Source: Candidatus Burarchaeum sp. (GTDB taxonomy: Archaea > Micrarchaeota > Micrarchaeia > Burarchaeales > Burarchaeaceae). Taken from it: a stretch of 34,868 nucleotides of DNA. The stretch is taken from NCBI RefSeq assembly GCF_030646255.1, contig NZ_JAUSNF010000016.1:1-34868 (forward strand). The letters are read 5' to 3'. Positions 24,055 through 27,510 of the stretch are shown piece after piece (the first letter of the stretch is position 1; every line of letters begins with the position of its first letter). Made by a program: the position numbers and the translations under genes. The notes under the pieces were generated by a model. The model saw only the letters and a program-made list of their open reading frames with translations. It made no database searches and was not told the origin of the DNA.

Positions 24055-24189
24055 ACGTCAGGGAACAGGCATTCCTCAGCAGAGGACTGGCGTGCACTCT
24101 CCCTGCGGGGAAAGGCATCCCTTTTCCGATTCGTCGGAAAAGAGGACCCCTTTCGGCGTGAGCAGAAAGCGGGCCTCAGTTCCTTACGT
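24055..24189 (+). repeat. Structured multi-hairpin element between cbf5 and tRNA-Ser
   Basis: This stretch begins directly after the cbf5 stop. An outer stem pairs ACGTCAGGGAAC (24055-24066) with GTTCCTTACGT (24179-24189), with one bulged base and one G-U pair. Inside are TCCTC/GAGGA around AGCA, a 9-base-pair hairpin CTTTTCCGA-TTCG-TCGGAAAAG (24121-24142), and CCCCTTTC paired across a loop with GAAAGCGGG. The same order of inner hairpins (TTTCCG/CGGAAA, then CCCCTTTC/GAAAGCGGG) is found in the element after tRNA-Leu (27380-27452). No coding frame here is credible. Confidence 0.65.
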
Positions 24190-24221
24190 CGTAAATATCT
24201 TGCAAAGGGCCTTGAAAAGCA

Positions 24222-24231
24222 TTATATACTT
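24222..24231 (+). promoter_or_regulatory. TATA box of tRNA-Ser
   Basis: TTATATACTT is centred about 28 bases before the first base of the tRNA (24254), so the primary transcript would begin only a base or two ahead of the mature end. Confidence 0.7.
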
Positions 24232-24291
24232 AACTCGTGCAATAATGTACCCTGCCGGGGTGGCGGAACCTGGTATCGCGCATGCCTGGAA

Positions 24292-24343
24292 AGAAACTTT
24301 TTCAGAAAAGTTTCATGTAATGACATTAGATGTTGTGCCGGAT
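24292..24343 (+). other. tRNA-Ser intron 1, canonical 37/38 position (52 bases)
   Basis: The exon bases CTGG (32-35) pair with intron CCGG (24338-24341, one G-U) as the central 4-base-pair helix. A three-base bulge AAA (24290-24292) and a three-base bulge ATA (24342-24344) flank it. Cutting each after its second base gives the standard archaeal splice. The intron body holds a 9-base-pair hairpin GAAACTTTT-TCAG-AAAAGTTTC (24293-24314). Confidence 0.88.
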
Positions 24344-24372
24344 AGCATGTGCCCGCAAGGGCTTATGGGTTC

Positions 24373-24467
24373 GGGCCCTTCTTTCTTTTCAAAAAAGAAA
24401 GAAGCCCCGGGGTAAGAAAGAAAACAAGTTTCCCGGGATTTGAAAACAAGAAAGGAAGGCCGCTCAA
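24373..24467 (+). other. tRNA-Ser intron 2, T-loop position 56/57 (95 bases)
   Basis: A bulge-helix-bulge can be drawn: central helix GGGT (24367-24370) with GCTC (24462-24465, two G-U or U-G pairs), bulge TCG (24371-24373) and bulge AAA (24466-24468), and inner helix GGCC (24374-24377) with GGCC (24458-24461). Cutting after the second base of each bulge restores a consensus T loop TTCAAAT. Inside are a 12-base-pair hairpin (24378-24404, loop CAA) and CCCGGGG (24406-24412) able to pair with TCCCGGG (24431-24437). Its two ends resemble the element at 27453-27490. Confidence 0.85.
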
Positions 24468-24484
24468 AAATCCCATCCCCGGCG

Positions 24485-24493
24485 CTTTAAATC
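24485..24493 (+). promoter_or_regulatory. TATA box for the uS13 operon
   Basis: CTTTAAATC starts at the base after the tRNA-Ser discriminator. It is about 25 bases before 24513, where GAGGTTTT supplies the ribosome-binding site for uS13. The promoter therefore abuts the tRNA 3' end. Confidence 0.6.
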
Positions 24494-24520
24494 GACGCTG
24501 AATTGCATTCATGAGGTTTT

Positions 24521-25312
24521 ATGATGAAAAACGAAGAGTCCAAGACGCACGGGAAGGAGCAACACAAGGAGCATGGCAAGGAACAGCCCAAGCCAGCTGA
24601 AGGCGGAAGCCAGCAGGCCAAATCCTCGCAGAAGCACGAGGGAAAGAAGCCTGACCAGCGGCCAACCGCGCCGGCGAAGCCGATGAAGGATTACGGCCAG
24701 GATTTCCGCGGTGTAGTCCGCCTTGCGGGCAAGGATTTGAAGGGTGAAGTGCCCGTGCGCCGCGCGCTCTCGCGCGTGAAGGGGATTGGCGACAGGCTAG
24801 GCCCGGTTCTGAGCGAGATAGCCACCCAGCAGATGAAGATTGCAAATGATACTGTCATCGGCCTGCTTACTGAAGAGCAGATGAAACAGCTTGAGGACAT
24901 TCTTTCGCACCCTGAAAAGTACGGCGTGCCAAACTACCTGCTCAACCGGCAGAAGGATCCTGAGACTGGCGTGGACCGGCACATCATCAGCACTGACGTT
25001 AATTTCCTCATGAGGCAGGACATCGAGCTTGACAAGACGCTGAACACTTGGCGTGGTTACAGGCACCTCTATGGCCAGAAAGTGAGGGGCCAGCACTCGC
25101 GCACGAGTGGAAGGACGGGCATGACCGTCGGCGTCCAGCGAAAGACCCTCATGGCGGCCAAGGAGGCCGCAGTGGCGGCAGAGGCCAAGCCAAAGGGCGG
25201 CAAGATTGCGGGCGCGGAAGAGAAGGCGGCAGCCTCGCCGGCAGAGGCAGGCAAGCCCGGGGCCAAGACCGATGCAAAGCCGGCCGCGGCGAAGAAGGAA
25301 GAGAAGAAGTGA
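24521..25312 (+). CDS. rps13: Small-subunit ribosomal protein uS13 with extensions at both ends
   Basis: 263 residues against the usual 150 or so of archaeal uS13. The core (about 60-210) is clear: FRGVVRLAGKDLKGEVPV, ALSRVKGIGDRLG, the archaeal DPETGVDRHIISTDVNFLMRQ segment, and the basic end GQKVRGQHSRTSGRTGMTVG. The front 57 residues are Lys/His/Gln/Glu-rich and the last 50 or so are Ala/Lys/Pro-rich, both without structure motifs. The start may be ATG 24521 or 24524; GAGGT at 24513-24517 favours the second slightly. It opens the uS13-uS4-uS11-rpoD group. Confidence 0.95.
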   Translation: MMKNEESKTHGKEQHKEHGKEQPKPAEGGSQQAKSSQKHEGKKPDQRPTAPAKPMKDYGQDFRGVVRLAGKDLKGEVPVRRALSRVKGIGDRLGPVLSEIATQQMKIANDTVIGLLTEEQMKQLEDILSHPEKYGVPNYLLNRQKDPETGVDRHIISTDVNFLMRQDIELDKTLNTWRGYRHLYGQKVRGQHSRTSGRTGMTVGVQRKTLMAAKEAAVAAEAKPKGGKIAGAEEKAAASPAEAGKPGAKTDAKPAAAKKEEKK

Positions 25313-25350
25313 TGAGCGCAAATGCATTTTTGCACAAGATGTGATTATCA

Positions 25351-25929
25351 ATGGGAGACCCGCGAAAACTCACGAAAAAGTACGAGATACCTAAGCGCAT
25401 CTGGGATACTGAGCGCATAACTGAGGAAGGCGAGCTCAAGAAGGAGTATGGGCTCAAGAACACGCGCGAGCTGTGGATAGCCCGCAAGGTGCTCAGGAAA
25501 ATAAGGCGCGAGGGCCGCAGGCTTCTCTCATTGGGCGGCCGCGGCCAGGAGGAGGCAAAGGAACTGCTCGCGAGCACTGTGAGGCTCGGGTTCGCAAAGC
25601 CGGGCACAACCCTCGACGGCCTTCTTGCGCTCAACATGCGTGACATCCTAGAGAGGCGCCTGCAGACGCGCGTCACGAAGCTTGGGCTCGCAAAGACAAT
25701 GCCTCAGTCGCGGCAGCTCATAACCCATGGTTTTATCGCAATCAACGGCCGCAAGTTTTCCGCTCCCAGCTACACTGTGCCAATTTCCGAAGAGCTCGGC
25801 ATCGTGCTCTACAAGCCGATAGACCTCAGCACGCCGGAGCCAAAAGCGCGCGAGGCCAAGAGGCACGGCTCGACTGCGGACCAGCTGGCGCCAAAGGCGC
25901 CGCCCGTGGATGCCGGAGTAGCAGCATAA
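25351..25929 (+). CDS. rps4: Small-subunit ribosomal protein uS4
   Basis: 192 residues. uS4 nucleates 30S assembly. The archaeal front GDPRKLTKKYEIPKRIWD is followed by RLLSLGGRGQEEAKELL, and the S4 RNA-binding domain lies at about 104-165 (ILERRLQTRVTKLGLAKT, RQLITHGFIAINGRKFSAPS, YTVPISEE). It follows uS13 as in most archaea. GTGATTATCA stands before the ATG. Confidence 0.96.
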   Translation: MGDPRKLTKKYEIPKRIWDTERITEEGELKKEYGLKNTRELWIARKVLRKIRREGRRLLSLGGRGQEEAKELLASTVRLGFAKPGTTLDGLLALNMRDILERRLQTRVTKLGLAKTMPQSRQLITHGFIAINGRKFSAPSYTVPISEELGIVLYKPIDLSTPEPKAREAKRHGSTADQLAPKAPPVDAGVAA

Positions 25930-25955
25930 TATTTCCGATGATTGAGTTGATTTGA

Positions 25956-26564
25956 ATGGCAGAAGAAACGAAAACAAACCCGGCACCCGCAAAAGAGCAG
26001 CCTGTCCAGGCACCCGTACCTATTGAAAAGGCCGTGCAGCCTGTTGCACCGCCGGCAACGCCTTCAACAGCTGCAACTGCGGCTCCCGCACCTGCTGAAA
26101 AGGCAGTGCAGCCTGTTGCACCGCCGGCAACGCCTTCAACAGCTGCGACCGCGGCAGCCCCAGTGCGCATCCCGATGAGGGAACTCCAGTGGGGCATTGC
26201 CCACATCTATTCATCCAAGAACGACACGATCATAACTATTACGGATATGAGCGGCGCCGAAACTATTGCAAAGGCAAGCGGTGGCATGATGGTGAAGAGC
26301 GACCGCGAAGAGGGCTCGCCCTATGCGGCCATGCAGGCAGCATTCAAGGCAGCAGACCAGGCCAAGATGCGTGGCATAACTGCAATTTACGTGCGCATCC
26401 GCGCGCCAGGAGGCCATCTGGACCGGACGCCGGGCGCAGGCGCGCAGGCCATGGTGAGGGCTCTTGCCCGCTCAGGCCTTCGCATAGGCAAGATAGAGGA
26501 TGTCACGCCGATACCGACCGACACCACAAAGAGGCCGGGCGGCAGGAGAGGAAGGCGCGTGTGA
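25956..26564 (+). CDS. rps11: Small-subunit ribosomal protein uS11 with repeated Pro/Ala N-terminal arm
   Basis: 202 residues. The usual uS11 core begins at about residue 73 ([22 protein letters not shown]) and includes [21 protein letters not shown], then [19 protein letters not shown] and the C-terminal [20 protein letters not shown]. The front 70 residues are an added Pro/Ala arm containing two exact-looking 24-residue copies ([20 protein letters not shown] and on), encoded by a 72-base tandem duplication. The arm lies on the platform side of the 30S subunit if it keeps the usual position. The core is normal. Confidence 0.95.
26025..26165 (+). repeat. 72-base tandem duplication inside uS11
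   Basis: GAAAAGGC at 26025 and again at 26097 begin two adjacent units of 72 bases with very few differences (for example GCCGTG/GCAGTG and GCAACTGCG/GCGACCGCG). The unit keeps the reading frame, so the protein gained 24 residues. The near identity suggests a recent event. Confidence 0.85.
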
Positions 26565-26573
26565 GGTGTTCAT

Positions 26574-27155
26574 ATGAAAGTCGAGCACGTAAAAAGTGGC
26601 AATGGCGGAATGTTCCTCACGTTCACGCTCAAGAATACGGGCACGGCGCTCGCGAACGCGATAAGGCGCATAAGCATGGGCCAGGTTCCCGTGCTCGCCA
26701 TAGATGCGATAACCATGTACGAGAACAACTCCGTATTCTTTGATGAATATATTGCAAATCGCATCGGGCTAATACCGCTCAAGACGCCGGACGGGTACGC
26801 GGAAGGCGAGGACGTGCTCTTCAAGCTCTCGGCAGAAGGGTCCGGCACCGTCTACTCAAAAGACCTGACGAGCACCGAGCGCGGGGTTTCATGCGTGTCG
26901 AAAAAGATACCGATAATCGAGCTCGTCGAGGGCCAGCGCCTGAGGTTCGAGGGCCGCGCAAGGCTCGGCAGGGGCAGGGAGCACGCGAAATTCCAGGCGT
27001 GCCTTGCCTCGTATGGCTTCGATGAGAAGACCAAGGAATTCAACTTCACCGTAGAATCTTTCGGCCAGATGACGGCTGGCGAAGTGATGCTGAAGACTGG
27101 AGAAATACTGCAGAACAAGTGCGAGGAGTTCCTCGCGCAGATGGGAAAGAAATAG
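26574..27155 (+). CDS. rpoD: RNA polymerase subunit D (alpha-like), without Fe-S domain
   Basis: 193 residues. With subunit L it forms the assembly platform of archaeal RNA polymerase. The dimer domain shows LKNTGTALANAIRRISMGQVP, then NNSVFFDEYIANRIGLIPLK and the C-terminal FNFTVESFGQMTAGEVMLKT. Longer archaeal RpoD forms carry a ferredoxin-like insertion of cysteine clusters; here only three isolated cysteines are present and the length is short, so the Fe-S domain is missing. GAGGTG precedes the ATG. It ends the uS13-uS4-uS11 group. Confidence 0.95.
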   Translation: MKVEHVKSGNGGMFLTFTLKNTGTALANAIRRISMGQVPVLAIDAITMYENNSVFFDEYIANRIGLIPLKTPDGYAEGEDVLFKLSAEGSGTVYSKDLTSTERGVSCVSKKIPIIELVEGQRLRFEGRARLGRGREHAKFQACLASYGFDEKTKEFNFTVESFGQMTAGEVMLKTGEILQNKCEEFLAQMGKK

Positions 27156-27211
27156 CCGAGGTGGATGGACGGAAGGACGACGTAGCAACTGGCACTTGTA
27201 AAGGGAGGATA

Positions 27212-27292
27212 ATAAGGAACAAACATTCCGCCGCTGCGGAATGTTGCATCATTCCGTCTTTCGAGACGGAATGCTTGCCGTAGGTTCCTTAT
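27212..27292 (+). repeat. Structured element flush with the 5' end of tRNA-Leu
   Basis: Terminal repeats ATAAGGAAC (27212-27220) and GTTCCTTAT (27284-27292) form a 9-base-pair closing stem. Inside, AACATTCCGC-CGCT-GCGGAATGTT (27222-27245) makes a 10-base-pair hairpin and CATTCCGTCT-TTCG-AGACGGAATG (27250-27273) another with a TTCG loop. The closing stem ends exactly at the base before tRNA-Leu begins (27293). No TATA box is visible at the right distance for the tRNA. Confidence 0.8.
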
Positions 27293-27379
27293 GCGGGGGT
27301 GTCAGAGCCAGGTCAAATGAGCAGGACTGAGGCTCCTGTGCCTTTAGTGGCTGCGTGGGTTCAAATCCCATCCCCCGCA
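27293..27379 (+). tRNA. tRNA-Leu(GAG)
   Basis: 87 bases, no intron. Acceptor GCGGGGG (27293-27299) pairs with CCCCCGC (27372-27378), and the discriminator is A as in leucine tRNAs. Anticodon stem CAGGA/TCCTG encloses CTGAGGC, anticodon GAG. A long variable arm (GCC-loop-GGC) and T arm GTGGG-TTCAAAT-CCCAT complete the class II cloverleaf. No CCA is encoded. The D stem is short (TCA/TGA). A tRNA-Leu ahead of eL18-uL13-uS9 is a known archaeal arrangement. With no promoter of its own it is probably processed from the rpoD message. Structured elements touch both ends. Confidence 0.95.
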
Positions 27380-27452
27380 TTTTCTCGGCGCCGTATTTCC
27401 GCCGTGCGGAAATCGGCCCCTTTCCCGCAAGGGAAAGCGGGCACCGAGAAAA
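27380..27452 (+). repeat. Structured element flush with the 3' end of tRNA-Leu
   Basis: Terminal repeats TTTTCTCGG (27380-27388) and CCGAGAAAA (27444-27452) form a 9-base-pair closing stem that starts at the base directly after the tRNA. Inside are ATTTCCGC-CGT-GCGGAAAT (27395-27413, extended by CCG/CGG) and CTTTCCC-GCAA-GGGAAAG (27420-27437) with a GNRA-type loop. The plan is the same as at 27212-27292, and the inner hairpins resemble those at 24055-24189. Confidence 0.8.
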
Positions 27453-27490
27453 GGGCCCCTTCTGCTCGGGCAGAAAGAAGGCCGCATAAA
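27453..27490 (+). repeat. Hairpin related to the tRNA-Ser T-loop intron
   Basis: GGGCCCCTTCTGC-TCGG-GCAGAA makes a 6-base-pair hairpin, and GAAGGCCGCATAAAAA follows. The left end resembles GGGCCCTTCT at the start of the T-loop intron (24373) and the right end resembles AGAAAGGAAGGCCGCTC at its finish (24450-24465). The middle of the intron is absent here. It lies between the 27380 element and the eL18 gene. Confidence 0.6.
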
Positions 27491-27510
27491 AAACGTAAGC
27501 ATGTGATATT

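Follow-up and report, generated by a model that had tools for sequence, protein, structure and literature searches.

Hairpin elements and tRNA genes of the window

The window analysed here, a stretch of 34,868 nucleotides (contig NZ_JAUSNF010000016.1) from a 1.21-Mb metagenome-assembled archaeal genome of Candidatus Burarchaeum sp. (Micrarchaeota; hereafter G000), carries small structured hairpin elements around and within its tRNA genes. It encodes Cbf5, the ribosomal proteins S13, S4, S11, L18e, L13, S9 and S2, RNA polymerase subunit D and three tRNAs, and is thus a piece of archaeal chromosome with a ribosomal protein operon. A sequence-only reading of the window had proposed that three hairpin elements (24055-24189, 27212-27292 and 27380-27452) and an intron in the T loop of a tRNA gene form one family inserting near, and at least once inside, tRNA genes, which would link mobile hairpins to tRNA introns. 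We compared G000 with a congener (G001), a confamilial genome (G002) and further relatives, the census resting on whole-genome model searches and selected stretches. R1 is a covariance model of 21 double-hairpin elements, to which the window contributed 27391-27441 only, while R3 models the beta family of introns described below and was built without the window intron. The features are as follows, all on the forward strand.

24118-24173: double-hairpin element (R1 42.4 bits, E 2e-9, outside the training set)
24254-24484: tRNA-Ser(GGA) with two introns, from sequence reading (overlooked by ARAGORN and Rfam)
24292-24343 (approximate ends): anticodon-loop intron of tRNA-Ser(GGA), from sequence reading, conserved in G001
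24373-24467 (approximate ends): T-loop intron, beta family (R3 match 24374-24421, 33.8 bits, E 2.4e-6)
27220-27277: double-hairpin element (R1 37.2 bits, E 4.5e-8, outside the training set)
27293-27379: tRNA-Leu(GAG) (ARAGORN and Rfam)
27391-27441: double-hairpin element (R1 63.2 bits, a copy in the training set)
27454-27495: hairpin with weak similarity to beta introns (R3 16.9 bits, E 0.022, second-ranked in the window)

The three hairpin elements fold as the earlier reading described, with a closing stem around two or more hairpins and TTCCG/CGGAA stems. Folding z-scores are -4.6 for 24055-24189, -6.6 for 27212-27292 and -4.4 for the third element (folded as 27378-27495), and in each case none of 200 shuffles equalled the native fold. 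The CCCCTTTC/GAAAGCGGG hairpin said to be common to the first and last elements is real. R1 recovers both window elements that lay outside its training set, and the three hairpin elements belong to one multi-copy family.

The element at 27220-27277 interrupts the loop of the 5' leader hairpin of tRNA-Leu. The syntenic tRNA-Leu(GAG) of G001 has an empty site, its leader hairpin reading AATAAGAACC-GTA-GGTTCTTATT; the window leader corresponds to this hairpin plus 58 bases (27220-27277), whose excision in silico restores AATAAGGAA joined to CCGTAGGTTCCTTAT and leaves a perfect stem. Just 3' of tRNA-Leu, 27391-27441 sits in the loop of a hairpin at 27381-27452, while a larger composite hairpin (24055-24189), which precedes the tRNA-Ser(GGA) TATA box on its upstream side, encloses 24118-24173. 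Neither this composite hairpin with its element nor the elements of the 27381-27490 region are present in the syntenic regions of G001, so that the comparison with close relatives that the sequence-only reading had called for shows the same loci empty in sister genomes. Separately, the spacer between Cbf5 and tRNA-Ser is about 1 kb longer in G001 than in the window and unrelated in sequence. Many tRNAs also share a conserved 5' leader (27201-27292 in the window) in which an AAAGGRAGKT-like motif precedes a hairpin of the form stem-AACC-GTA-GGTT-stem that terminates at, or a few bases from, tRNA nucleotide 1; this unit is sometimes tandem and is also found within tRNA introns.

A multi-copy family of double hairpins

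The family follows a simple grammar of two abutting hairpins over about 50-59 bp. Each hairpin has a base of 3 bp, bulges by 1 nt on its outer side and carries a stem that varies between copies yet pairs perfectly; the order is NNN, 1-nt bulge and stem directly followed by stem, 1-nt bulge and NNN. One example is CCCnCTTTC..GAAAGGGG abutting CCCCTTTC..GAAAGnGGG, and ATTCCG or ATTTCCG first hairpins occur as variants. The pattern CCCTTTCN{3,30}GAAAGSGG has nine matches in the window genome, 10 in the congener and three in the confamilial genome, and its reversed control has none. Across the 21 aligned elements 97.2% of cells are paired, with 42 double-changed cells against 10.6 in shuffles.

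R1 detects at least about 32 loci in G000, at least about 25 in G001 and more in G002, and the further copies predicted by the earlier reading thus exist. Its matches are patchy, occurring in 24 of 196 genomes from the class; other families of the order carry related forms built on a different core (CGCGATTTGCGC..GCGCAAATGCGCCC..), while the strict doublet is confined to the family of the window (3 of 60 relatives). When GTDB r220 was scanned, where the records of the window itself may be missing, the strict palindromic doublet turned up in just two records, CABMJK01 (uncultured archaeon LFW-281_7) and QMVF01 (Ca. Micrarchaeota B9_G16).

Non-overlapping G000 loci at 37 bits or more were tallied by hand from the model search. 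Out of at least 32, 13 are in a tRNA gene or no more than about 200 bp away from one (in the introns of tRNA-Gln and tRNA-Cys, in a 5' leader or close to it, or just 3' of the gene), nine lie in-frame in conserved protein genes and 10 lie elsewhere. The excess at tRNA genes gives p about 1e-14 against the whole genome and p 2e-8 to 2e-4 for noncoding copies only, under assumed backgrounds of 9-20% that are estimates. All these p-values are slightly conservative, having been computed with totals of 33 and 24 in place of 32 and 23. Clustering at tRNA genes is therefore real but not exclusive: the proposed insertion near tRNA genes holds as an over-representation (13/32) and fails as a specificity, given the 9/32 copies in protein genes.

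The G000 coding hosts, named by sequence reading, are HisRS, fumarase/aspartase, PRPP synthetase, TruD, an acetyltransferase, GlmS, a MetRS-type tRNA-binding domain, an aIF1A-like protein and a Trm5-like methyltransferase; GAPDH, ArgRS, a sugar epimerase, mevalonate kinase, apgM, an acylphosphatase, a NurA-like nuclease and PurL are further hosts in G001, giving in-frame insertions in about 17 unrelated protein genes over the two genomes. Insert length is divisible by three in 12/12 single coding inserts, compared with 18/45 noncoding ones (p 1.2e-4), and the GAPDH insert splits two blocks that adjoin each other in the solved GAPDH chain 1hdg_O. The orthologs examined do not carry the coding inserts, with empty sites in GlmS, the acetyltransferase, the epimerase and others. 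Where the alignment of an empty site resolves the junction (tRNA-Leu, GlmS, acetyltransferase, epimerase and others), no target-site duplication was seen, unlike in a classical miniature inverted-repeat transposable element. In one open frame at G000:C36:3110-3164, we also observed a double-hairpin element that separates or fuses HEPN- and MNT-like toxin-antitoxin reading frames.

These positions bear on two accounts that require no transposition. The first takes the hairpins for immobile RNA signals that function in the expression of tRNA and ribosomal operons (terminators, guide RNAs or processing RNAs), as their strong folding and their places at operon junctions and in tRNA leaders and trailers would suggest. 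Yet the same loci are empty in the congener, copies lie in-frame in many unrelated enzymes, and Rfam matched two tRNAs in the window and no other known RNA family, which also rules out a known RNA family as the identity of the window hairpins. Since orthologous sites are empty, this account is refuted in general and we regard it as highly improbable. The second, local formation of palindromes when replication folds back and switches template at a hairpin already present, would fit inner stems that differ between copies yet remain perfectly paired, as well as the frequent nesting of copies in the loops of others. It is improbable as the origin of the copies, because unlinked loci have a conserved base sequence in common (CCCCTTTC..GAAAGnGGG) and empty sites are filled cleanly, both of which require a template to be copied; fold-back and template switching may still be a source of stem turnover.

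Two families of tRNA introns

The gene at 24254-24484 is identified as tRNA-Ser by the anticodon GGA at 24288-24290, G73 and a long variable arm, and its exons and anticodon intron are nearly identical in G001. The intron at 24373-24467 interrupts it, from sequence reading, at a splice-competent position in the T loop. It is here that the proposal of a single family comes apart: the three hairpin elements stand together, by R1 and covariation, while the T-loop intron groups separately. R3 places this intron first among its window matches, with 33.8 bits against 23 bits over 35 nt for R1, ruling it out as a double-hairpin copy. Its nearest copy is the T-loop intron of tRNA-Ser(CGA) (G000:C47), identical at 84 of 95 positions, and the syntenic tRNA-Ser(GGA) of G001 has in its place an unrelated 37-nt intron. 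The match of its ends to 27453-27490, also noted from the sequence, is modest but above chance, its alignment score being reached by 4 of 2000 shuffles.

Reading tRNA loci in three genomes, with tRNA identities taken from sequence, we distinguished two intron families. The alpha family (AAGGGGGCACG..CGCCCCCTT plus AACCCC..) occupies anticodon loops (His, Leu, Ser, Arg, Gly) and T loops (Ala, Met, Ser, Gln), and the beta family (GGCCCTTTTC..GAAAAGCGCC plus GCGGAAAA) D loops (Ala, Val, Arg), anticodon loops (Thr, Gly, Asn, Gln, Lys), T loops (Lys, Asp, Ser, Ile) and 23S rRNA. The beta copies checked all lie in tRNA or rRNA loops in sense orientation, while alpha copies also occur outside tRNAs, in spacers, antisense to genes and, in G001, once within an OTCase reading frame. 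Gene conversion may have acted between the introns of tRNA-Ser(GGA) and tRNA-Ser(CGA), but it does not readily explain the sharing of alpha and beta introns across isotypes and loops.

Double-hairpin elements are themselves nested in tRNA introns, in G000 in those of Gln and Cys, and in G001 in those of Arg (the anticodon loop of one gene, the D loop of another), of Pro, Lys and Leu (T loop) and of Gly. In G001, tRNA-Pro(GGG) and tRNA-Lys(TTT) carry a T-loop intron with an element, while the syntenic G000 genes are without the T-loop intron. Elements inside tRNA genes were thus rightly anticipated, as copies nested in introns that include T-loop ones, although the window T-loop intron is not such a copy. 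Mobile hairpins and tRNA introns are intertwined, yet double hairpins and introns are distinct families; the link suggested at the outset survives in a changed form, in which introns host elements and alpha has copies both inside and outside tRNAs. Further observations on these loci are two introns at different loops of one gene (anticodon and T loop of a tRNA-Gln, D loop and T loop of a tRNA-Arg), a beta-family intron-like unit in an apparent 23S rRNA (G000:C12:5948-5993), and an alpha copy outside tRNAs (G000:C53:15457-15507) with a 14-bp direct repeat (TATAAACTAGTCTT) on either side, whereas the double-hairpin elements show no such duplication.

No canonical bulge-helix-bulge could be drawn by eye at the 24373-24467 junctions, where relaxed motifs are possible. 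Since a splicing endonuclease gene (PF01974) is present in G000 and G001 and the Micrarchaeum enzyme has broad specificity (PMC12397907), removal of the tRNA introns by this endonuclease is plausible. Spread at the RNA level, in which splicing endonuclease and RNA ligase place excised introns or hairpins in RNA loops by reverse splicing before they are copied back into DNA, would account for the sense orientation of the beta copies in tRNA and rRNA loops and for elements nested inside introns, but hardly for copies within protein genes or for alpha copies antisense to flanking genes, and we hold it to be quite unlikely. A broader idea, which we advance only tentatively, is that structured elements, domesticated or still mobile, make up the tRNA introns found at non-canonical positions in Micrarchaeota, with alpha, in its intronic and free copies, as the bridge, and introns as landing pads for further double-hairpin elements.

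Movement of the elements and comparison with known systems

The hairpins are probably copies of a small, non-autonomous, mobile double-hairpin element, the T-loop intron belonging to the separate beta family, itself copied between tRNAs. In the mechanism that we favor, the element would be moved in trans by an enzyme, more likely at the DNA than at the RNA level, and would insert cleanly, leaving no target-site duplication. It would then persist where the transcript is cut away or tolerates it, namely in tRNA leaders and trailers, in D-, anticodon- and T-loop introns, in spacers and in the loops of earlier copies, as well as in-frame in protein genes, where it would be translated into about 17-20 additional residues. 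Beta introns, presumably taken out by the splicing endonuclease, would be copied between tRNAs and loop positions, and tRNA genes would act as reservoirs whose introns shelter hairpin elements.

The lack of target-site duplication, together with the bulged hairpins, suggests a single-strand hairpin mechanism of insertion. Paired imperfect hairpins with outer bulges would likewise be expected of single-strand DNA transposition by an HUH/Y1 enzyme acting in trans, as for IS200/IS605-derived or REPIN-type elements, and G000 has one IS200-like Y1 gene. The hairpins beside this gene are, by eye, unlike the elements, however, and no Y1 gene was found in the element-bearing genomes G001, G002, G003 and G007; this distribution is inconsistent with a Y1 transposase as mobiliser, and we consider the explanation unlikely.

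Several points weigh against a mobile element moved in trans. The Y1 transposase (PF01797) is found in only 2 of 12 genomes (G000 and G004). A general preference for hairpin loops fell short of significance (mean rank 0.58 with p 0.095 for noncoding copies, 0.40 for coding ones), although individual insertions into the hairpin loops of leaders and introns are clear. All genomes compared are drafts, and the locus counts are lower bounds because no more than 150 candidates were scored per genome.

The question addressed is how archaeal tRNA genes gain introns at odd positions. In this lineage the events are recent, orthologous sites can be compared both empty and filled, introns are shared between loops, and a small mobile element is nested in introns and essential enzymes, which makes gain, loss and tolerance directly testable. 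The inserts, if translated, would constitute a natural record of protein loops accepting a new peptide of 17-20 residues.

Within the literature searched, with most subscription journals outside it, such elements have not been reported in Micrarchaeota, nor has any single element family that combines places in tRNA introns and leaders with insertions in coding genes. The closest parallels are the mitochondrial double-hairpin elements (DHE) of Allomyces (Paquin et al. 2000, cited in PMC5910586) and the repetitive hairpin-forming elements of sponge mitochondria (PMC2800124), which also occur in rRNA genes and for which a hairpin-forming insert in a coding gene is reported to cause no frameshift. 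Like these, the element is a small hairpin or double-hairpin unit, multi-copy and varying between close relatives; as in DHE, two adjacent hairpins form the unit (21 elements) and close genomes differ in their insertions (empty sister sites). Unlike them, it resides on an archaeal chromosome and not in mitochondrial DNA, has many in-frame insertions in enzymes and is nested in tRNA introns, the likeness being one of layout and behaviour. Rickettsia palindromic elements (PMC10969869) have in common palindromic units in-frame in many unrelated protein genes, but measure about 150 bp and belong to Rickettsia, whereas the element described here has two abutting hairpins of 50-59 bp, occurs in Micrarchaeota and is also found in tRNA leaders and introns. 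With REP/REPIN sequences and their RAYT transposases (PMC3116915) it shares an inverted pair of short imperfect palindromes dispersed over the genome, but it has no consistently associated Y1 transposase, its stems vary by compensatory change and many copies are intragenic. The alpha and beta families behave like the transposing tRNA introns of Thermoproteales (Fujishima et al. 2010, reviewed in PMC4090602). They differ from these in belonging to Micrarchaeota, in having a copy in 23S rRNA and, for alpha, copies outside tRNAs, and in hosting a second mobile element within the introns. In-frame palindromes (PMC10969869), mitochondrial double hairpins (PMC5910586, PMC2800124) and tRNA intron transposition (PMC4090602) are thus each already known separately.
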